Shown piece after piece: positions 2,713 to 25,528 of a DNA stretch of 41,292 bases. Origin of the DNA: Belliella alkalica. GTDB taxonomy: Bacteria > Bacteroidota > Bacteroidia > Cytophagales > Cyclobacteriaceae. Positions within the stretch are counted from its first letter, which is position 1. Every line of letters begins with the position of its first letter. The stretch spans positions 1 through 41,292 of the forward strand of contig NZ_JAKZGO010000029.1 in assembly GCF_022549785.1 (NCBI RefSeq). Reading direction: 5' to 3'. The translations under genes and the position numbers were made by a program. A model generated the notes under the pieces. The model had not been told where the DNA came from. It worked only from the letters and a program-made list of their open reading frames with translations, and made no database searches.

Positions 2713-4101
2713 GTGGCTTTAATTAAATCGATTTCCGGTATTCGTGGCACCATTGGGGGCAAACCTGGAGAGGGTCTGACTCCTCTAGATGTAGTGAAAT
2801 TTTCAGCAGCCTATGGTTCTTGGGTCATTCAAAACACCAATAATCCAAAAATTGTAATCGGAAGAGATGCTCGAATCTCTGGAGAGATGGTTTCCAAGCT
2901 CGTATCAGCGACGCTTCAAGGATTGGGGATTGACGTGATAGACTTAGGCTTGAGTACTACTCCCACTGTGGAGTTGGCAGTTCCTTTGGAAAAAGCTGGA
3001 GGAGGAATCATCCTTACAGCAAGTCACAACCCTATGCAATGGAATGCACTGAAGCTATTGAATGACAAGGGGGAGTTTATCTCAGATGCAGAGGGCAAAG
3101 ATATTCTAGTCAAAGCTGATCAAGATGACTACCATTTTGCTGAAGTAAAAAAACTTGGTTCTTACACAACTATCGATGACTATATTGATAGACACGTCGA
3201 GCATGTCCTAGGTTTGAGACTTGTGGATGTGGAAGCGATCAAAGCGAGAAATTTCAAGGTAGTAATTGATTGTGTTAATTCTACGGGAGGTATTGCCTTG
3301 CCGAAATTGTTACGTGCATTGGGCGTAGAGCATATCGAAGAAATGTTCTGTACGCCTGATGGGCATTTTCCACACAACCCAGAGCCATTGCCAGAAAACC
3401 TCAGAGATATTTCAGAGAAGTTGAAAAAAGGGAAATTTGATCTTGGAATCGTGGTAGATCCAGATGTGGATAGATTGTGTTTCATGAATGAAGACGGTTC
3501 TCCATTTGGTGAAGAATATACTTTGGTAGCGGTAGCAGACTATGTGCTTTCACAGACTCCAGGCAATACAGTTTCAAACTTGAGCTCTACAAGAGCATTG
3601 AGAGACGTGACAGAGAAACGAGGCGGTGTCTATCAAGCAGCTGCAGTGGGAGAGGTGAATGTGGTGAACAAAATGAAAGAAACCAATGCAGTGATCGGTG
3701 GAGAAGGAAATGGAGGGGTGATTTATCCTGAGTCTCATTATGGTCGAGATGCTTTGGTTGGTATTGGTTTGTTTTTGACCCATTTGGCAAAATTCGGGAA
3801 ATCCATATCAAGGCTGAGAGCTACTTACCCAGGCTATCATATTTCCAAAAATAAAATAGAACTAACCCCTGAGATTGATGTTGATGCTGTATTGGAAGCA
3901 ATCAAAAAGAAGTATTCCAAGCAACCTATCAATGACATCGATGGTGTAAAGATAGAATTCGATAAAGAATGGGTTCATTTGAGGAAATCAAATACCGAAC
4001 CGATTATTAGGATATATTCCGAATCGGAAAGCCAAGCAACTGCAGAGCATTTGGCAAAAAAAATCATGCAAGACATCAAAGAAGTGGTAACAGCTTCTTG
4101 A
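2713..4101 (+). CDS. glmM: Phosphoglucosamine mutase
   Basis: This phosphohexomutase probably converts glucosamine-6-phosphate to glucosamine-1-phosphate, the step before UDP-GlcNAc for peptidoglycan and LPS. The 462 residues show the four-domain family landmarks: the phosphoserine loop TASHNP (Ser104), the metal-binding loop DPDVDR (249-254), the sugar-binding GGEGNGG, and the C-terminal phosphate-binding SNTEPIIRIYSES. The start is GTG at 2713, followed directly by the conserved N-terminus ALIKSISGIRGTIGG; no upstream ATG fits. It belongs to the Bacteroidota/archaeal-like branch annotated as GlmM. Phosphomannomutase activity is the alternative, since the family is hard to split by motif alone. 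Confidence 0.9.
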   Translation: MALIKSISGIRGTIGGKPGEGLTPLDVVKFSAAYGSWVIQNTNNPKIVIGRDARISGEMVSKLVSATLQGLGIDVIDLGLSTTPTVELAVPLEKAGGGIILTASHNPMQWNALKLLNDKGEFISDAEGKDILVKADQDDYHFAEVKKLGSYTTIDDYIDRHVEHVLGLRLVDVEAIKARNFKVVIDCVNSTGGIALPKLLRALGVEHIEEMFCTPDGHFPHNPEPLPENLRDISEKLKKGKFDLGIVVDPDVDRLCFMNEDGSPFGEEYTLVAVADYVLSQTPGNTVSNLSSTRALRDVTEKRGGVYQAAAVGEVNVVNKMKETNAVIGGEGNGGVIYPESHYGRDALVGIGLFLTHLAKFGKSISRLRATYPGYHISKNKIELTPEIDVDAVLEAIKKKYSKQPINDIDGVKIEFDKEWVHLRKSNTEPIIRIYSESESQATAEHLAKKIMQDIKEVVTAS

Positions 4102-4109
4102 ATATAAAG

Positions 4110-4143
4110 ACCACCTTGATTATGCAAAAGTGATCAAGGTGGT
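4110..4143. terminator. Hairpin between glmM and the cysteine desulfurase gene
   Basis: Arms ACCACCTTGAT (4110-4120) and ATCAAGGTGGT (4133-4143) form a perfect 11-bp stem with a 12-nt loop. Only a weak T run follows, so it may be a partial terminator or an RNA-processing site between two same-strand genes. Confidence 0.45.
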
Positions 4144-4179
4144 TAAATCTTATTATTACAGCCCAAATATTGAAGAAGA

Positions 4180-5322
4180 ATGAAAGTTTATTTTGACAAT
4201 GCAGCAACTACTGCCATGGATGACGGCGTCATCGATGCAATGATTCCTTACATGAAGGAGCATTATGGTAATCCTTCTTCCGTGCACAGTCATGGAAGAG
4301 AGGTGAGATCTGCCATAGAAAAATCAAGAAAAAAGGTAGCTGAATTGCTGAATGCTTCTCCTTCTGAGATATTTTTCACTTCTGGTGGCACTGAGGCTGA
4401 TAATACAGCGATCGTTTGTGGCATTCATACACATGGAATAAAACATGCAATTACTTCACCTATTGAGCATCATGCGGTGCTTCATACTTTGGAAGAATGT
4501 GAAAAAAAGGGTCATATAAAACTGAGTAAGGTGGAAGTCGATGAGTTTGGATCGATTAACCTTGATCATCTTCAGGAACTTTTGAAAGCGAACCCTAAGA
4601 GCTTGGTCTCCATCATGCATGCAAACAATGAAATTGGTAACATCAATGATTTGAGTGCTATCGGAAATATAGCAAAGGAATATGATGCGTTTTTTCATTC
4701 TGATACAGTTCAAACAATGGGTCACTACCCACATGATTTGAAGAATCTTCCCATTGACGCTGTTGTCGCTGGAGGACATAAGTTTCATGGGCCAAAAGGT
4801 GCTGGTTTCTTGTATGTGAATAAGGCAAAGAAAATCACCCCTTTTATTTACGGTGGTGCCCAAGAGAGAAATATGCGAGGTGGAACGGAAAATGTGATCG
4901 GCATCGTTGGGATTGCCAAAGCATTGGAGCTTGCTTATGAAGATATGGATGGCCATCGCAAGCATATAGAAAAGTTAAAAAGCAGATTTATTGAGCAGTT
5001 GCAGGAAAATATAGCTGGAGTCTCTTTCAATGGTTTGTCTGCCGATATGGATAAGAGTCTATACACAGTTTTGAATGTGAGTTTGCCTCCTTCTGAGGAA
5101 AATAGCGGCATGCTTTTATTCAACCTAGACCTTCACGGGATATCTGCTTCAGGTGGCTCAGCATGCAGTAGTGGTGCTACTGTAGGTTCCCACGTCTTGA
5201 GGGCTTTGGGGGCAAGTGCAGAAAGGGATTCTGTAAGATTCTCCTTCAGTAGATTCAATACTGCGGAAGAAGTAGATTATACCGTAGGAAAATTGAAAGA
5301 GCTATATGGAGTTATTGCCTAA
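4180..5322 (+). CDS. Cysteine desulfurase (NifS/IscS family)
   Basis: This PLP enzyme takes sulfur from cysteine as an enzyme-bound persulfide for Fe-S cluster assembly or tRNA thiolation. The N-terminus MKVYFDNAATT is typical. The PLP lysine is in GGHKFHGPKG (Lys201) and the persulfide cysteine in SGGSACSSG (Cys329), on a short IscS-like/NifS-like loop. HSDTVQTMGHYP and GGAQERNMRGGTENV are also conserved. The length of 380 is normal. No iscU, iscA or tRNA thiouridylase gene is adjacent, so the partner cannot be read from context. It lies 78 bp after glmM, with a hairpin between. Confidence 0.95.
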   Translation: MKVYFDNAATTAMDDGVIDAMIPYMKEHYGNPSSVHSHGREVRSAIEKSRKKVAELLNASPSEIFFTSGGTEADNTAIVCGIHTHGIKHAITSPIEHHAVLHTLEECEKKGHIKLSKVEVDEFGSINLDHLQELLKANPKSLVSIMHANNEIGNINDLSAIGNIAKEYDAFFHSDTVQTMGHYPHDLKNLPIDAVVAGGHKFHGPKGAGFLYVNKAKKITPFIYGGAQERNMRGGTENVIGIVGIAKALELAYEDMDGHRKHIEKLKSRFIEQLQENIAGVSFNGLSADMDKSLYTVLNVSLPPSEENSGMLLFNLDLHGISASGGSACSSGATVGSHVLRALGASAERDSVRFSFSRFNTAEEVDYTVGKLKELYGVIA

Positions 5323-5454
5323 GGCTATTTTGTCAAGTATATAAAAAATTACCAATACCTGACAGGTTTAATGATCAGTAAATCATTAAATACATTCTGA
5401 ACCATATAAAATGGTCAGGTTTGCATCCTCAAGAATTAATCACAAGATGCAGGA

Positions 5455-16581: not shown

Positions 16582-17151
16582 TTATTTCAAAAATTGAACA
16601 AGAGACTTTACAGCTTTACCTCTATGGCTGATTTCGTTTTTCTCATCCATGCTTAATTCCGCAAATGTTTTGTCAAATCCCACAGGCTTGAACACCGGAT
16701 CATATCCAAATCCTCCAGTCCCAGTTCTTTCTTTCAAGATTTCTCCATTCGCTATCCCTTCAAATGAATGTTCTTCTCCGTTTAAGAGTAGTGCAATTAC
16801 AGTTCTGAATTTTGCACTTCGGTCTGATGCTCCATTTAAGTTTTTCAGAAGTAGGTCAATATTTCTTTCGTCACTTCTCGGCTCTCCGGCATATCTCCCC
16901 GAATACACACCTGGCGCACCATTCAGTGCATCGACTTCCAATCCTGTGTCATCTGCGAAGCAATCTACCCCATAGTTGTCTTTTACATATCGGGCTTTTT
17001 GAAAAGCATTATGATCAAGAGTGTCGCCAGTTTCTGGAAGTTCTTCACGACAACCTATTTCCTCCAAAGAAACAATAGTAAATGAATCCCCAAGAGCAGC
17101 TTTTACCTCCTCTATTTTCTTTTTGTTGTTAGTAGCAAAGCAAATTTTCAT
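16582..17151 (-). CDS. rdgB: Non-canonical purine NTP pyrophosphatase (RdgB/HAM1)
   Basis: RdgB hydrolyses dITP, ITP and XTP so that deaminated purines are not built into DNA or RNA. The 189 residues show the family blocks: FATNNKKKIEEVKAAL at the start, FADDTGLEVDALNGAPGVYSGRYAG with the catalytic acidic pair, GTGGFGYDPVFKP, and SMDEKNEISHRGKAV at the end. The length is standard. It is the first gene of the rdgB-udk pair. Its promoter lies in the repeat-rich divergent region 17152-17520. Confidence 0.96.
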   Translation of the reverse strand: MKICFATNNKKKIEEVKAALGDSFTIVSLEEIGCREELPETGDTLDHNAFQKARYVKDNYGVDCFADDTGLEVDALNGAPGVYSGRYAGEPRSDERNIDLLLKNLNGASDRSAKFRTVIALLLNGEEHSFEGIANGEILKERTGTGGFGYDPVFKPVGFDKTFAELSMDEKNEISHRGKAVKSLVQFLK

Positions 17152-17194
17152 GTTGCAAAATTAGGGTTTTTATTAATGCGAGTGTGTTTGGAGC

Positions 17195-17500
17195 TTATAA
17201 AGTTGTAAGGTTTCAAGGTTGGAAAGTTAAAAAGTTGGCATATAGCGAGAAATGTTGTTTTTACAAGTTACTTAACCCCGATATCTTCGGGTTTGAATGT
17301 TTCAAGGTTTAAAAGTTACAAAGTTGAAGCTTAGCGAGAGGGACTAGACACTATTCCAAAACTTTTCAACTTTCAAACTTTTTTAACTTTCCATTCCCTA
17401 ACCCCTTGATAACTATTTAAGTGCAAAAATCGTCATCAAGAAACATTTTAACTTTACAACTTTCCCAACCTTTCAACTTTCCAACTCCTTTTCCCTAACT
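17195..17500. repeat. Degenerate AAGTT/AACTT repeat array with central hairpin
   Basis: The divergent region between rdgB and the LOG gene is filled with short motifs. The left part repeats AAGTT or AAGGTT every 7-9 bases (for example AAGGTTGGAAAGTTAAAAAG near 17213). The right part has the complementary form (CAACTTTCCCAACCTTTCAA near 17458), so the whole can fold as a large imperfect hairpin. A second hairpin AACCCCGA...TCGGGTT lies at 17273-17293, and GCGAGA occurs twice (near 17245 and 17334). Confidence 0.6.
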
Positions 17501-17520
17501 TTGGACAAACTAAAAATGGT

Positions 17521-18093
17521 ATGAAGAAAATAACTGTTTATTGTGGTTCGAATAAAGGGAAAAACCCAGTGTATGTAAGTGCAGCACATTTATTGGCAGA
17601 TGAAATGATCCGGAGAGATATGGCTCTTGTGTATGGGGCTGGGAATGTTGGGTTGATGGGAGTCATAGCTGACAGAATGTTGGAAGCTGACAAAAAAGTA
17701 TATGGGATCATTCCTCAGAAGTTGGTTGATATAGAAGTGGCGCACAGGGGATGTACAGAATTGACGATCGTAGAGACGATGCGGGACAGGAAATGGCTAA
17801 TGGCCGAGCGAGGGGATGGTTTTATTGCCATGGCAGGAGGCATTGGGACTTTTGAGGAGCTTTTTGAAATCATGACCCTCAATCAGCTCGCTTATATCAA
17901 AAAGCCATTGGCATTGTATAATGTCAATGGATATTATGACAAATTGATTGATTTTTTGTCATTCAGTTGTCAGGAAGGTTTTCTACACCAAGCTCAATTG
18001 GACTTGTTGATCGTGTCTGACGATCCAGTAGAAATACTTGATAAAATGGAGAAATTTGAACCCAAATACATAGAAAAGTGGGAAGTAAAATAG
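17521..18093 (+). CDS. LOG-family protein (TIGR00730)
   Basis: LOG proteins are nucleotide-hydrolysing enzymes with a lysine-decarboxylase-like fold. The characterised ones release bases from N6-modified AMP (cytokinin nucleotide phosphoribohydrolase) or cleave AMP or other nucleotides. The 190 residues show VYCGSNKG at the N-terminus, YGAGNVGLMGVIADRM, and the active-site motif MRDRKWLMAERGDGFIAMAGGIGTFEELFE. In this protein the usual PGG reads AGG; the R-x-x and GGxGTxxE elements are kept. It stands alone, divergent from rdgB, and its stop directly abuts a structured repeat (18094-18159). Confidence 0.92.
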   Translation: MKKITVYCGSNKGKNPVYVSAAHLLADEMIRRDMALVYGAGNVGLMGVIADRMLEADKKVYGIIPQKLVDIEVAHRGCTELTIVETMRDRKWLMAERGDGFIAMAGGIGTFEELFEIMTLNQLAYIKKPLALYNVNGYYDKLIDFLSFSCQEGFLHQAQLDLLIVSDDPVEILDKMEKFEPKYIEKWEVK

Positions 18094-18159
18094 TCTAATC
18101 GCAAATTTCATATAAAATCAGCGATCATAATCGCAAAATTTATATTAAATTTGCGATTA
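18094..18159. repeat. Structured 66-bp repeat, copy A (upstream of ATPase 1)
   Basis: This copy starts at the base after the LOG stop codon and ends at the A of the ATPase start codon. It matches 19282-19347 at 61 of 66 positions, with the first 37 identical. Its 3' half forms a palindrome with arms CATAATCGCAAA (18126-18137) and TTTGCGATTATG (18150-18161), so the ATG is the last base triplet of the right arm. Within it, TAAATTTG at 18146-18153 fits the Bacteroidota -7 box TAnnTTTG. It probably carries the ATPase promoter and operator. Confidence 0.8.
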
Positions 18160-19286
18160 TGTATATCAATAGAGAAATTCAGATCAAACTAAATAAGAGG
18201 ATTGCTGATGGCAAGGCTATTATTGTATTTGGCCCAAGACAAGTGGGAAAGAGTACTTTGTTGAAAAATCTGAATAGTCAGTTTGAAGCGCCTGTATTGT
18301 GGTGGAATGGAGATGATGCTGACGTCAGGGAAATGCTTTCCAATACAAGTTCTACCAAATTAAGGACATTAATTGGAAAGTCAAAGACAGTTGTCATTGA
18401 TGAAGCTCAAAGAATAGAGAATATAGGTGTTTGCATAAAAATTATTGTGGATAACTTTTCGGAAGTGAAAGTATTTGCAACTGGTTCCTCTGCTTTTGAG
18501 CTATCAAATAAAATCAAGGAACCATTGACTGGGAGGAAATGGGAATATTTTCTTTTCCCCTTTTCGTTTTCGGAAATGGTATCCCATACCAATTTTTTGG
18601 AAGAAAAAAGAATGCTCAATCAAAGGATGGTCTTTGGTTACTATCCAGAAATCGTCCAAAACCCAACTGATGCAGAAGAGAGATTGAGGATGATTGCAGA
18701 TAGCTATTTATTCAAAGATGTGTTTGCTTTGGGAAATTTGAGAAAACCTGATCAGATTCAGAAGTTGCTGCAAGCTTTGGCTTATCAAGTAGGGAATGAA
18801 GTTTCTTACAATGAACTTGGGATGCTTGCCGGATTGGATAATGAGACTGTGGAAAAGTACATCACCTTGCTTGAGCAAACTTTTATTGTTTTTAGGGTAG
18901 GTTCATTTAGTCGAAATCTTAGGAATGAACTCAAAAAATCGAGGAAAATTTATTTTGTGGATAATGGTATTCGAAATAGTTTAATCAACAATTTCCTTCC
19001 ATTGGAAAGCAGAACAGATGTTGGGGCTCTCTGGGAAAATTTTTTGATGGCAGAGCGTTTGAAAAAGAATGCTCTCAATGGCAATTATAATGTTGGATAC
19101 TTTTGGAGAACCCATGCACAGCAAGAGATAGATTATGTTGAAGATATGAATGGCAGTCTTTCGGCTTGGGAGTTCAAGTGGAATCCCAAAGCCAAAGTAA
19201 AGATCCCTGCAACTTTCTTAAATGCTTATCCAAAAGCCAAAGTACAGGTGATAAATCCTGATAATTTGGAGGATTTCATTTTCTAA
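18159..19286 (+). CDS. DUF4143-family AAA-like ATPase (ATPase 1)
   Basis: This 375-residue protein has an N-terminal P-loop ATPase domain (Walker A GPRQVGKST at residues 25-33, Walker B TVVIDEAQ, sensor VFATGSSAFEL) followed by a winged-helix segment (EVSYNELGMLAGLDNETVEKYITLLEQTF). A C-terminal DUF4143 domain has a restriction-endonuclease-like fold whose D...E-x-K pattern is visible (EIDYVED, then AWEFKW). These proteins are very common in Bacteroidota and archaea and have no agreed function. The start codon lies inside a palindrome, and 66-bp near-identical repeats flank the gene on both sides, as if inserted as a cassette. Confidence 0.93.
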   Translation: MYINREIQIKLNKRIADGKAIIVFGPRQVGKSTLLKNLNSQFEAPVLWWNGDDADVREMLSNTSSTKLRTLIGKSKTVVIDEAQRIENIGVCIKIIVDNFSEVKVFATGSSAFELSNKIKEPLTGRKWEYFLFPFSFSEMVSHTNFLEEKRMLNQRMVFGYYPEIVQNPTDAEERLRMIADSYLFKDVFALGNLRKPDQIQKLLQALAYQVGNEVSYNELGMLAGLDNETVEKYITLLEQTFIVFRVGSFSRNLRNELKKSRKIYFVDNGIRNSLINNFLPLESRTDVGALWENFLMAERLKKNALNGNYNVGYFWRTHAQQEIDYVEDMNGSLSAWEFKWNPKAKVKIPATFLNAYPKAKVQVINPDNLEDFIF

Positions 19287-19347
19287 TCGCAAATTTCATA
19301 TAAAATCAGCGATCATAACCGCAAAATTCATATAAATTTTGCGGTTA
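19282..19347. repeat. Structured 66-bp repeat, copy B (downstream of ATPase 1)
   Basis: This copy starts two bases before the ATPase stop codon, which is the TAA of its TCTAATCGC, and ends at the stop codon of the convergent GAF-protein gene. Its stem has 13-bp perfect arms at 19316-19328 and 19335-19347. Compared with copy A, the stem carries CCGC/GCGG in place of TCGC/GCGA, a matched change on both arms. It probably serves as a bidirectional terminator here. Confidence 0.8.
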
Positions 19348-19827
19348 GATTGTTTTTTCAAGAATGGTAATTAGTTTTTCCAGGTAAATTTGATCTGTTT
19401 CATCAAAATCTCCAAGCTTGTCCGAATCAATGTCCAAAACACCTACTACTTTGTCAGCAGTAGAAAATGGAAGAACAATCTCGGATTTTGAATCAGAACT
19501 GCAAGCAATGTGTCCGGGAAATGCATCTACATCTGGGACTAGTTGTGTTTTGTTTTCTTTCCAAGCTGTACCACAGACGCCTTTTCCAAGATTGATCCTA
19601 GTACATGCAATTGGCCCTTGAAATGGACCCAAAACTAACTGATCGTCTTTTACCAAATAGAATCCTACCCATAAAAAACCAAAAGATGCTTTTAAGACTG
19701 CGGATATATTTGCCAAGTTGGCTATAAGATCTTTTTCGCCGCTGATCAGTGCCTCAATTTGAGGAAGGATTGATTCGTACTTTTCAGTTTTTGAATCAGT
19801 TGCGGGTATATATAGTGATTCTGCCAT
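19345..19827 (-). CDS. msrC: Free methionine-R-sulfoxide reductase (GAF domain)
   Basis: This enzyme reduces free methionine-(R)-sulfoxide in the cytoplasm as part of oxidative-damage repair. It is a 160-residue single GAF domain. The three catalytic cysteines of the fRMsr family are present with the right spacing: Cys75 (GPIACTRI), Cys85 (GKGVCGTAW) and Cys109 (FPGHIACSSDSKSEIVLP), spacing 10 and 24 as in E. coli MsrC. It starts 7 bp after ribD ends, so it is the last gene of the DUF4382-ribD-msrC run. Its stop overlaps repeat copy B. Confidence 0.9.
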   Translation of the reverse strand: MAESLYIPATDSKTEKYESILPQIEALISGEKDLIANLANISAVLKASFGFLWVGFYLVKDDQLVLGPFQGPIACTRINLGKGVCGTAWKENKTQLVPDVDAFPGHIACSSDSKSEIVLPFSTADKVVGVLDIDSDKLGDFDETDQIYLEKLITILEKTI

Positions 19828-19833
19828 TTGTTT

Positions 19834-20862
19834 TTATTTAGTGTTTTCCAATATCTTAAGTTCATCGCCAAGAATGTCTGATTTATGGATCATTTTTCCT
19901 TGGATTTTTGGAGCAGAGATTCCATTGCCAAAATTGACTTGACCTGTAAACACCCTTGCTTCATCCCAAAGTTCGGCTTCAATCAGTTTTTGTAGTAAAA
20001 ATGTACCACCTTCTACCAATATACTCTGGATTTTTCTCTTGTATAGTTCTGAAAATATTGCTGAGAGTGGAAAATCAGGTTCTAATTTTATGTACTCCAG
20101 ATTTTCAAATTTTTCATTCTTCACCAAGTTAAAACAGATTGTGTCTTGGCTTTGGTCAAAAAATGAAAGATCAGGACTTAACTGAAGCATCCTGTCTATC
20201 ACGATTCTAATTGGGTTTTTGCCTGTCCAATCCCTTACATTGAGCTTTGGATTGTCATAGCGGGCAGTATTCGTGCCGACCATGATCCCTGCTTCCTCGG
20301 TTCTCCATCGATGTACCAGTTGGCGGCTATATTGGTTGCTGATCCATTTGGAGTCAAAGTTTTCTCTAGCGACAAATCCATCTTGGGTTTGCGCCCATTT
20401 GAGGACAATGTAAGGTCTTTGTTTTTCTATATATGTAAAAAACCTTCTATTTTGATATCTGATTTCCTCTTCCAAAATGCCAGAAATCACCATAACTCCA
20501 GCTTTTCTCAAGATTTCAATTCCTTTTCCCCCTACTAGTGGATTCGTATCAATTGCACCAATTACAACTTGCCTCACCTTTTTATCTACAAGTAAATTGG
20601 CACATGGAGGTGTTTTTCCAAAATGTGCACAAGGTTCTAAAGTTACATAAACAGTAGCTTCCCGAAGGTCAACATGCCCATTCACCTGCCGAATAGCATT
20701 TGGTTCGGCATGGGGTCCACCATAATGTTCATGATATCCTTCTGCAATGATTTTACCATCCACTACGATTACACATCCTACCATTGGGTTTGGGCTAACG
20801 CTCCCTTTTCCCAATTCAGCAAGTTCGATCGCCCTCCGCATGAATTTGATGTGGTTTTCCAA
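19834..20862 (-). CDS. ribD: Riboflavin biosynthesis deaminase/reductase RibD
   Basis: RibD carries out two steps of riboflavin synthesis: deamination of the pyrimidine ring, then NADPH-dependent reduction of the ribosyl chain. The N-terminal deaminase domain has the zinc site HAEPNAI (His51, Glu53) and PCAHFGKTPPC (Cys78, Cys87). The reductase domain follows with PYIVLKWAQTQDGFVA, GTNTARYDNPKLNVR and SILVEGGTFLLQKLI. The start is TTG 20862: the family N-terminus needs the MENHIKFMRRA segment, and an in-frame stop precedes it. It follows the DUF4382 gene by 12 bp. No other rib gene is adjacent. Confidence 0.94.
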   Translation of the reverse strand: MENHIKFMRRAIELAELGKGSVSPNPMVGCVIVVDGKIIAEGYHEHYGGPHAEPNAIRQVNGHVDLREATVYVTLEPCAHFGKTPPCANLLVDKKVRQVVIGAIDTNPLVGGKGIEILRKAGVMVISGILEEEIRYQNRRFFTYIEKQRPYIVLKWAQTQDGFVARENFDSKWISNQYSRQLVHRWRTEEAGIMVGTNTARYDNPKLNVRDWTGKNPIRIVIDRMLQLSPDLSFFDQSQDTICFNLVKNEKFENLEYIKLEPDFPLSAIFSELYKRKIQSILVEGGTFLLQKLIEAELWDEARVFTGQVNFGNGISAPKIQGKMIHKSDILGDELKILENTK

Positions 20863-24283: not shown

Positions 24284-24332
24284 TGCTATTTTACTTAGCA
24301 AAAAAATACTATATTTGCTAAGTAAAATAGCA
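24284..24332. promoter_or_regulatory. Near-perfect 19-bp-arm palindrome before ATPase 2
   Basis: Arms 24284-24302 and 24314-24332 are perfectly complementary with an 11-nt loop, and the ATG at 24335 is two bases after the right arm. TATATTTG at 24310-24317 fits the TAnnTTTG -7 box and spans the loop/right-arm junction. The sequence is unrelated to the repeat at ATPase 1 but has the same position and form. It is probably an operator or an mRNA hairpin controlling the ATPase. Confidence 0.75.
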
Positions 24333-24334
24333 AA

Positions 24335-25528
24335 ATGGAAAATCTTGTAAATAAATCCAAGTTGATTGTAGGGGGTACAAGCTTGGATATAATCAGAAGC
24401 AAATATGATGAGATAGACTGGGATAGCAGGTTGATTGGGATTCTAGGTGCAAGAGGCACTGGGAAATCAACTTTAGTCTTGCAATATCTCAAAAAAAAAT
24501 ATGGTTTAAGTGATCTTGCAGCTTATTGGTCTTTAGATGATATTTACTTCAGTAATCATACTTTGATTGAGACGATTGAGAATTTTTATCAAGTTGGGGG
24601 TAGGTTTTTGGTTTTGGATGAGGTCCACAAATATCCTTCATGGGCTAGGGAGCTTAAAAATGCGTATGATTTTTATAAAGACTTGAAAGTCGTGTTTACA
24701 GGCTCTTCTGTAATTGATATGTTGAAGTTGGATGTTGATTTGAGCAGAAGAGCAATATTGTACCACCTTACTGGTTTGTCTTTTCGAGAATACTTGAATT
24801 TTGCAAATAAGATGCAGCTGCGTGTTTTTTCTTTAGATGAAATTCTATCAAACCATATAGAATTAGCTAATTCTGTTTTAGTTAAAGTTAATCCTTTGGC
24901 AGAGTTTGAAAATTATCTTAAACATGGATACTATCCGTTCTTTTTAGAAGGAACAAAAACTTATCATCTTCGAATTGAACAAATCATAAGATTGATTATA
25001 GAGACTGAACTTCAATTTATTGAAGGAATGGATATCCACAAGACCAAGAGAATCCATCAGCTACTGGGTCTAATTGCTCAAAGCGTGCCTTTCAAACCCA
25101 ATGTTGCTAAGTTGAGTGAAAAAATTGGAATTCATAGAAATACACTTACTACGTATTTCCATTATCTTGAAAAGGCGAAAATCATCAACAGTCTTTATGC
25201 TGTTGGTAAAAGCACAAGTGTTTTGCAAAAGCCAGACAAAGTATATTTGGAAAATACAAATATCAGCTATGCATTGGCAGGGGCAAAGTTAGACAAGGGG
25301 AACCTTCGAGAGACTTTCTTTTATTCTCAATTGGCAGAAAAACATCAGCTGAGTCTTCCGAATAATGGGGATTTCATGCTTGATGAAAAGTTCACCATAG
25401 AAGTCGGAGGGAAAAATAAGACAGATTTTCAAATCAAAAACCAGCCCGATTCATTTTTAGCTGTTGATGATGTACCTATTGGTTCCTACAATAGGATTCC
25501 TCTTTGGCTGTTTGGATTTGTCAGATGA
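24335..25528 (+). CDS. DUF4143-family AAA-like ATPase (ATPase 2)
   Basis: This 397-residue protein has the same domain order as the one at 18159 but low visible similarity. It has a P-loop (LIGILGARGTGKSTLVLQYL), Walker B FLVLDEVHKYPSW, a sensor motif VVFTGSSVIDM, a winged-helix segment (KPNVAKLSEKIGIHRNTLTTYFHYLEKAKI), then a DUF4143 domain with the E-x-(G)-K part of a nuclease-like site (DEKFTIEVGGKNKTDFQ). It starts two bases after a 19-bp-arm palindrome. The following lipoprotein gene is 62 bp downstream on the same strand. The function of the family is not established. Confidence 0.92.
   Translation: MENLVNKSKLIVGGTSLDIIRSKYDEIDWDSRLIGILGARGTGKSTLVLQYLKKKYGLSDLAAYWSLDDIYFSNHTLIETIENFYQVGGRFLVLDEVHKYPSWARELKNAYDFYKDLKVVFTGSSVIDMLKLDVDLSRRAILYHLTGLSFREYLNFANKMQLRVFSLDEILSNHIELANSVLVKVNPLAEFENYLKHGYYPFFLEGTKTYHLRIEQIIRLIIETELQFIEGMDIHKTKRIHQLLGLIAQSVPFKPNVAKLSEKIGIHRNTLTTYFHYLEKAKIINSLYAVGKSTSVLQKPDKVYLENTNISYALAGAKLDKGNLRETFFYSQLAEKHQLSLPNNGDFMLDEKFTIEVGGKNKTDFQIKNQPDSFLAVDDVPIGSYNRIPLWLFGFVR

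Follow-up and report, generated by a model that had tools for sequence, protein, structure and literature searches.

The window, a stretch of 41,292 nucleotides from Belliella alkalica, carries an AAA_14-DUF4143 ATPase-nuclease gene between a LOG-type gene and a convergent GAF-domain gene, and a second, divergent gene of the same type farther to the right (Table 1). The right neighbour had been called msrC in the preliminary description; the NCBIfam scan of this gene gave no match. The ATPase scores 103.5 bits against Pfam AAA_14 (cut-off 27) and 136.9 bits against DUF4143 (cut-off 28.1), the domain pair of the PADLOC defence candidate PDC-S01, and the PDC-S01 model covers it from end to end. 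It is thus a member by sequence of a family for which phage defence has candidate status. The Walker A/B and PD-(D/E)XK-like residues K31, D81, E82, D325, E338 and K340 are all retained; among 203 aligned proteins, D325 is conserved in 202, E338 in 199 and K340 in 200, and K31, D81 and E82 in at least 199 each.

Table 1. Features of the window; position 1 is its first base
Feature	Position	Strand	Evidence
LOG-type gene (TIGR00730), left neighbour	17521..18093	+	ORF; NCBIfam TIGR00730, E = 4.6e-52, over cut-off
Upstream repeat copy (candidate cognate array, two dyad units)	18094..18159	+	Sequence, repeat comparison, copy alignment
Half-sites of upstream copy, TAATCGC / GCGAT(C/T)A	18096-18102, 18121-18127, 18128-18134, 18153-18159	+	Copy alignment
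TAAATTTG, fits the Bacteroidota -7 box TAnnTTTG, inside second dyad unit; predicted promoter	18146..18153	+	Sequence
AAA_14-DUF4143 ATPase-nuclease gene, PADLOC candidate PDC-S01	18159..19286	+	Pfam; PADLOC PDLC04789, E = 2.9e-168; AlphaFold2, mean pLDDT 91.1
Residues 228-240, predicted recognition helix of winged-helix-like part; 228/229 covary with half-site	18840..18878	+	Model, column scans
Residues 319-320 (HA), beside nuclease motif QQEID; covary with dyad-centre spacer	19113..19118	+	Column scans
Nuclease-like motif E323-I-D325 ... E338-F-K340	19125..19178	+	Alignment of 203 proteins
Downstream repeat copy, spanning ATPase stop (19284-19286) and GAF stop (19345-19347)	19282..19347	+	Sequence, ORFs
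GAF-domain gene (msrC in the preliminary description), right neighbour	19345..19827	-	ORF; Pfam GAF_2, E = 1.3e-10
18-bp perfect inverted repeat (24285-24302 / 24314-24331), 3 bp before ATG of second DUF4143 gene	24285..24331	.	Sequence
Second AAA_14-DUF4143 gene of the window, divergent	24335..25528	+	Pfam AAA_14, E = 1.3e-27, and DUF4143, E = 2.5e-7, both above cut-off

The ATPase gene is bracketed by a direct repeat of 66 bp, as had been described from the sequence: the two copies are identical at 61 of 66 bases (92%, E = 1.2e-21). The upstream copy begins immediately past the LOG stop codon (TAG, 18091-18093) and ends on the A of the ATPase ATG, and the downstream copy begins 2 bases ahead of the ATPase stop codon TAA, its last 3 bases being the stop codon of the convergent GAF gene. 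The hairpin noted at the end of each copy was recovered as a dyad (18126-18143/18144-18161, 89% complementary; 19316-19331/19332-19347, 94%), and the first half of each copy forms a second dyad, which is less perfect. A 66-bp copy is accordingly composed of two units TAATCGC-N18-GCGAT(C/T)A, the 18-base spacer being AT-rich. The paired stem change, T to C at repeat position 38 together with A to G at position 63, is also as described. When 20 copies from 16 genomes (19 distinct rows) were aligned, 15 rows had U-A at this pair, 2 had C-G and 1 had U-G, and 1 row was unpaired there. Two-sided changes were also seen at one further pair of the second stem, in 3 of the 19 rows, and at one pair of the first stem, in a single row. 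Covariation in this alignment is thin, as two-sided changes counted per pair were not above those of shuffles (132/500), whereas those counted per cell were (0/500). Since 7 of the 17 stem pairs are invariant and the others vary little, the covariation of the 66-bp copies says little. A search of the whole assembly (4.95 Mb, 105 contigs) with the repeat found two places, both at the window locus, and a dispersed repeat family in this assembly was rejected.

The locus was compared in eight genomes of the genus, the GAF gene lying within the fetched stretch at nine of 28 LOG loci only. A full ATPase gene stands between LOG and GAF in three of the genomes (G000, G002 and G005). Four others (G001, G004, G006 and G007) possess at this place a C-terminal ATPase tail of 29-42 codons (tblastn) followed by one repeat, which has decayed to about one unit in G006, and G003 has one repeat together with about 12 weakly matched tail codons (E = 0.065). 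Outside the genus, the only genome with LOG beside GAF (G008, of another genus) has neither tail nor repeat. The preliminary description had proposed that the repeat and the ATPase may have inserted as a cassette, for which empty sites with a single repeat were to be sought in relatives. Five of the eight genomes are gene-less and have one repeat; the tail is present in them as well, and G008 has no repeat. A simple cassette with a clean one-repeat empty site was thus rejected for LOG-GAF. The part of the cassette claim that stands is that the repeat and the ATPase behave as a unit, as evident from a genome of a further genus (G028), in which an 82%-identical ATPase bears the repeat on both sides and neither LOG nor GAF was found in the stretch fetched. 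The window copies themselves are the gene's own promoter-proximal array rather than a simple target duplication, and probably remain from an element that was earlier or tandem. The simplest history of LOG-GAF would be an insertion that predates the diversification of the genus, a second or tandem element at the same array, and then repeated loss; recombination between the direct repeats may account for the losses in the sister species. All events observed within the genus are losses. At two other loci (L053 and L061), losses and decayed remnants were observed and no insertions.

A tandem duplication of ATPase and repeat, the first copy of which has since decayed, could also explain the window repeats and would require no insertion mechanism; such a history is compatible with the main explanation given below for the family. 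It would account for the order LOG-tail-repeat-ATPase-repeat-GAF in G005, where the direct repeat extends to 160 bp (96%) and takes in the last 33 codons of the gene, and for the tails of the relatives starting, as judged by eye, within about 20 bp of the LOG stop codon. The bracketed ATPase of G028, at a place where no LOG was found, argues against it. This duplication is held possible for the window, at rather less than even odds.

The bracketing was then considered across the family. Relatives were gathered from 59 genomes, 40 stretches, repeat matches in 295 family genomes, and named genomes, where the best 80 of 576 confirmed places were taken. The gene set comprises 142 non-identical genes, 140 of them with 150 clean upstream bases; orthologues are included, so that not all of these genes are independent. 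An array was taken as significant when no more than 1 of 100 dinucleotide shuffles attained its direct or palindromic repeat. Such repeats are found in 116 of the 140 upstream regions (24 genes being without a significant array), as compared to 33 of 139 downstream regions and 29 of 217 control upstream regions. Direct and palindromic repeats are both significant in 80 upstream regions of these genes, 13 downstream regions and 4 control upstream regions. By eye, an array has 2-3 units of about 30-34 bp each near the ATG. Among loci taken to lie outside Bacteroidota, 7 of 16 have a significant array, and none of the 7 proteobacterial ones does. Solo array copies, in other genera (L095, L096) and at LOG-GAF, stand between convergent genes.

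The similarity of the arrays tracks the identity of the proteins. The upstream local score is at least 20 in 91-100% of pairs that are at least 70% identical, and in 0-0.3% of pairs below 45%. There are 117 pairs of at least 70% identity, of which 38 share a neighbourhood and 79 lie in different neighbourhoods; upstream matches occur in 74 of the latter and nearly always fall in the 200 bp or so next to the ATG, and beyond the stop codon 71 of the 79 show no detectable match. When ten of the 11 AAA_14-DUF4143 genes of the window genome were compared with one another, the best of the 45 array scores was 16.5 and the next 13.5. As established by sequence comparison, the AAA_14-DUF4143 genes of this branch mostly bear dyad repeats against their ATG, and the sequence of the array follows the protein. 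The two 150-bp flanks of a gene match each other in 20 of 140 genes, as compared to 2 of 286 control pairs; by reading, 14 of the 20 matches involve the array and the other six are host sequence (L160, L199, L025, L184, L144 and L062). This recurrence of own-array bracketing with unrelated arrays, at about 14 of the 140 genes, also speaks against a mere tandem relic at the window. The repeats are very probably the cognate DNA site of the ATPase-nuclease that they surround, a candidate site well supported by the correspondence between array and protein.

The preliminary description had taken the hairpin to be under selection. The dyad is indeed conserved; the stem, however, appears to be selected as a two-fold DNA site and not as an RNA hairpin. 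Among 364 dyads from 131 of the 140 genes, G-T mismatches number 189 and A-C mismatches 177, a ratio for which composition alone predicts 1.04. Selection on RNA would favour G-T, and its absence in excess suggests a DNA site; selection for an RNA hairpin is unsupported by these counts. The distribution of the Bacteroidota -7 box TAnnTTTG bears on the same point. The motif is present in 80 of the 140 genes with its start 12-75 bp ahead of the ATG, as compared to 6.45 expected from mononucleotide shuffles, its commonest start being 25-29 bp ahead of the ATG. Of these 80 genes, 57 have the box over a dyad and 19 have it downstream of every dyad. A function of the RNA as translational switch, terminator or array like that of a type III toxin-antitoxin system would nevertheless gain from the hairpin that each copy can form and from the solo copies between convergent genes, where a terminator would be useful. 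Against such a function of the RNA stand the mismatch counts and the placement of the -7 box, since a box over or after the dyads leaves much of the array untranscribed from that box; moreover, the Rfam scan of 17000-20500 gave no match at gathering strength. A role as RNA is considered very improbable.

The arrangement found is that of an autoregulatory operator, namely a cognate dyad over the gene's own predicted promoter. As the -7 box lies in the second dyad of the upstream copy and overlaps a dyad in most of the genes that have the box, autorepression is likely, and the ATPase-nuclease likely represses its own promoter via the array.

The structure of the window ATPase was modelled with AlphaFold2 from 70 sequences (mean pLDDT 91.1, pTM 0.90). 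The model consists of an AAA+ domain, a helical region and a C-terminal nuclease-like domain; helices 197-209, 217-224 and 228-240, together with strands, may be read as winged-helix-like. SSO1545 (2fna) was the top Foldseek match, followed by RuvB, Cdc6/Orc1 and clamp loaders, and a sequence search of solved structures with the ATPase found none. When the overall identity of 109 genes was held constant, array similarity followed residues 220-243 and 301-333 best, and columns 319, 320 and 229 most of all. Separately, 375 columns were scanned against repeated 6-mers among 84 representatives (less than 72% identical); columns 319, 228, 102, 229 and 320 ranked highest, in this order, and in a permutation test the top score (319) was reached in 0 of 200 permutations and the second (228) in 3 of 200. 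Column 102, third in the scan, has no structural reason to be there. The scan associates K319 with AAAGTT (7/11 as compared to 0/73 for other residues) and N228 with ATCGCA (9/22 as compared to 0/62).

Half-site classes and AAAGTT were picked on the 84 representatives, and the counts in this first set are of classes chosen after inspection: AAAGTT accompanies K319 in 9/11 as compared to 5/73, and residue 229 accompanies the half-site as E with CG in 16/21, Q with CG in 8/15, K with CC in 16/18 and N with CAC in 7/16. The unchanged classes were scored on a held-out set of 69 loci, which yielded 63 usable genes (of the six loci dropped, one had too little upstream sequence and five were interrupted or had no usable ATG) and, after restriction to proteins at least 40% identical to the window protein and less than 85% identical to any earlier one, 51 genes. 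Here K229 occurs with CC in 7/8 as compared to 6/43 (p = 1e-4), and N229 with CAC or GTCA in 13/16 as compared to 3/35 (p = 5e-7), GTCA having been pooled with CAC as both were seen with N in the first set, in which GTCA was also seen with Q; CAC alone gives 7/16 as compared to 1/35. The corresponding values are 6/13 and 5/38 for E229 with CG (p = 0.02), 4/8 and 4/43 for K319 with AAAGTT (p = 0.015), and 3/5 and 1/46 for N228 with ATCGCA. The K229 and N229 rules held well in the 51 new genes, and the E229 and K319 rules in about half. Both parts of the correspondence are combined in one gene (L295), which has N229 and K319 in the protein and a CAC half-site and an AAAGTT spacer in the array. 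Alignment of proteins and arrays thus demonstrates that residues 228/229 track the half-site and residues 319/320 the spacer; the winged helix would then read the half-site and the nuclease side the dyad centre.

Possible insertion marks were sought in the 600-bp flanks of 168 elements, of which 166 were usable, and of 273 control genes from these loci. In 39/166 elements, as compared to 6/273 controls (p = 1e-12), the best repeat between the flanks is a direct one, the controls being mostly genes not recently acquired and orthologous loci being counted separately. The best repeat is inverted in 6/166 as compared to 4/273 (p = 0.19), which is no excess, one of the controls counted as inverted (L072) being itself a family member. 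Eleven of the 39 direct repeats overlap the array and 28 end at least 50 bp before the ATG, among which L067, L054, L070, L023 and perhaps others still take in array units. Direct repeats outside the array range in length from 20 to 235 bp; several of the 28 are short, lie at a distance from the element or are only 72-83% identical, and older dispersed repeats may be among them. Among the 20 stronger cases, the median end of the upstream copy is -108 and the median start of the downstream one +22; the downstream copy sets in 1-56 bp past the stop codon in 13 and at +75 to +357 in 7. No duplication of host sequence was found around the window ATPase, which has the arrays alone, and no flank repeat around the second gene of the window.

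Five of the repeats, of 57-144 bp and 93-99% identical, consist of host sequence and look as if insertion had duplicated a long target. In this altered form, the insertion idea of the preliminary description comes back for other members of the family. They comprise the start of an S4/pseudouridine synthase gene (L296, 73 bp, 98.6%) and of a glycosyltransferase gene (L025, 100 bp, 98%), each gene being intact downstream, the 3' end of a 921-codon open reading frame (L199, 144 bp, 96%), a segment having no other copy among the stretches compared (L160, 57 bp, 98%), and a repeat of 77 bp (L028, 93.5%); a shorter one measures 23 bp (L144). An empty-site search for L296 gave no match in the only other genome of its genus, so that this case rests on the duplicated gene start. 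Gene-less sites were found for two further elements. At the L141 site of Algoriphagus aquaeductus, two of five relatives (G361 and G203) have one copy of the repeat at the junction and the other three (L247-L249) have none; the segment is terminator-like, and G361 bears a further copy about 540 bp away. At the L067 locus, G006 lacks the gene but retains the two flanks, with a single shortened copy in place of the two of G005, and G001 and G007 have one copy beside the right flank, the left flank not being found. Insertion would be the simpler polarity for L141, and loss by recombination explains L067 equally well. Near-identical elements at unrelated loci were not found among the relatives gathered, and the case for recent movement therefore rests on the flanking duplications. 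One-gene mobility with duplication of a long target is supported by them, and is judged somewhat more probable than not.

The array could instead be a mere autoregulatory operator, with a defence gene lacking mobility of its own being spread by transformation or larger elements and the flank repeats arising as joining accidents. The -7 box, which overlaps or lies downstream of the dyads in 76 of the 80 genes having it, is what such an operator would show; the family is a PADLOC defence candidate; and its gene positions are common to the genus, with repeated loss. A Bacteroides plasmid relative also adjoins an RteC-domain gene, a neighbour that we take to be typical of large conjugative elements. 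An operator does not, however, need residues beside the nuclease motif to track the site, and accidents of joining are argued against by flank repeats that are direct and not inverted and whose copies, in the clean cases, closely adjoin the outer edge of the array and the stop codon. This account of the family is considered rather unlikely.

The explanation preferred here combines the cognate array with a one-gene mobile element that copies long targets, and is given a probability of about 0.6. The ATPase-nuclease would bind its own array as a symmetric oligomer, with the winged helices reading the half-sites and the nuclease domains the dyad centre, and this binding would silence the gene's own promoter. 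The array would serve as the left end of the element; the right end would lie shortly beyond the stop codon, as the downstream starts of the stronger cases suggest, and would have no conserved sequence. Insertion would duplicate a long target, 23-144 bp in the clean cases, and owing to this long copy the element could land in the starts or ends of genes and leave the gene unbroken. At the window locus, an older element may have entered the LOG-GAF interval ahead of the diversification of the genus, and the gene now present would stand between two arrays derived from successive or tandem elements; recombination between the arrays, or simple deletion, would have removed the gene in the sister species and left the tail and one repeat. 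More tentatively, and at a little short of even odds, PDC-S01 may consist at least largely of one-gene transposons, whose two-part residue-to-base code and one-ended insertion, duplicating tens to more than 100 bases, would be unlike known bacterial transposition.

A survey that counted 9,986 instances of PDC-S01 in archaea and 29,494 in bacteria describes it as an ATPase with a fused member of the PD-(D/E)-X-K group, ranks it fourth in frequency among prokaryotic defences, and states that validation is pending for most such candidates (PMC12988326); in rumen genomes it is reported as the most frequent individual locus (PMC13356809). The available passages of these two accounts contain no repeats, recognition code or insertion ends of the kind described here. 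Likewise, no account of repeats, of a code, or of insertion ends and long duplications for DUF4143/PDC-S01 was found in a literature search made mostly at the level of listed records. Prokaryotic NTPase-REase proteins, which similarly join a P-loop NTPase to a restriction-endonuclease-like domain, have a published association with transposable elements (Zhang et al. 2016, summarised in PMC5289972); the arrays, the recognition code and the long duplications are described here for the window family from its sequences.

The gene resembles REP/RAYT and IS200/IS605 systems in being bracketed by imperfect palindromes of its own. It differs from these in that the Pfam scan of the window ATPase reveals no Y1/HUH transposase domain, and in that its palindromes occur at the two window places and are not dispersed over the assembly. 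The flanking duplications are a further difference from both systems, for which, to our knowledge, such duplications are not known. The family also departs from classical DDE insertion sequences, the inverted repeats not being in excess and the direct repeats varying in length (20-235 bp). Palindromic boxes beside the gene are familiar from autoregulatory operators and from the origin boxes of archaeal Orc1/Cdc6, and the window family shares with these the palindromic boxes beside an AAA+ winged-helix gene; it differs in having a fused nuclease domain, the residues of which also track the site.

The self-specific array, the residue-level code and the insertion marks make the function of PDC-S01 directly testable by assays of binding, cutting and movement. 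If the family were a selfish element, the counts of defence genes in many genomes would need revising, and a code in which recognition-helix and nuclease-side residues serve separate parts of the site would be a useful example of a self-contained DNA-recognition module.

Relatives (27% identity) on Acinetobacter plasmids lie within a shared block of about 1.8 kb that has common ends on many plasmids. This block may be a pdif-type module, and these relatives were left out of the insertion evidence. Relatives also occur on plasmids of Moraxella, Sinorhizobium, Thermus and Bacteroides, and these relatives were viewed by eye; viral contigs yielded one partial relative.

Copies of the 66-bp repeat that brackets the window's AAA_14-DUF4143 ATPase gene also occur singly, with 85-88% identity, at the loci L094, L095, L096, L097 and L098, with no full gene of the ATPase's subfamily adjoining. 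These solo copies, found in four genera, adjoin a conserved lipoprotein-like gene, and in L095 and L096 the copy lies between two genes that converge on it. A possible reason for their retention is a role as terminators, or as sites that another paralogue reads.

At the L053 locus, a decayed upstream array of dyad repeats is still present where the gene has been lost (L230, L231 and L232 in genomes G004, G007 and G001, respectively); about 22 N-terminal codons of the gene remain in G005 (L234). A separate AAA_14-DUF4143 subfamily has TTAGGC-type arrays both upstream and downstream of the gene at L054, L067, L070 and L019 (genomes G000, G005, G004 and G027, respectively). The duplicated segment at L054 and L067 carries a AACTTTTCC...GGAAAAGTT hairpin, and the L067 site of G006 lacks the gene and holds one shortened copy.

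Around the second AAA_14-DUF4143 gene of the window, no flank repeats were found in the 600 bp searched. The repeats upstream of LOG (TIGR00730), the left neighbour of the ATPase gene, bear no relation to the 66-bp repeat.

Positions of features in the window and in the compared loci
Feature	Location	Strand	Remark
Second AAA_14-DUF4143 gene	window 24335-25528	+	divergent
Inverted repeat, 18 bp, perfect	window 24285-24331		ends 3 bp before ATG of second AAA_14-DUF4143 gene
Imperfect direct and inverted repeats	window 17194-17513		based on (A)AGTTGAA / TTCAACTT; situated upstream of LOG
Solo 66-bp copies	L094-L098, about 1501-1566
Start of further AAA_14-like gene	L296 (G363) 3464-4102		directly after intact host gene
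Block with DUF4143 relative	L222, about 3535-5349		1.8 kb

Inspection of L296 by eye revealed the start of another AAA_14-like gene directly after the intact host gene; therefore, such elements (gene plus array) may cluster. A distant DUF4143 relative lies inside a block on the Acinetobacter sp. plasmid pACI-df08 (L222), the ends of which are common to many Acinetobacter plasmids, and which may be a pdif-type module.
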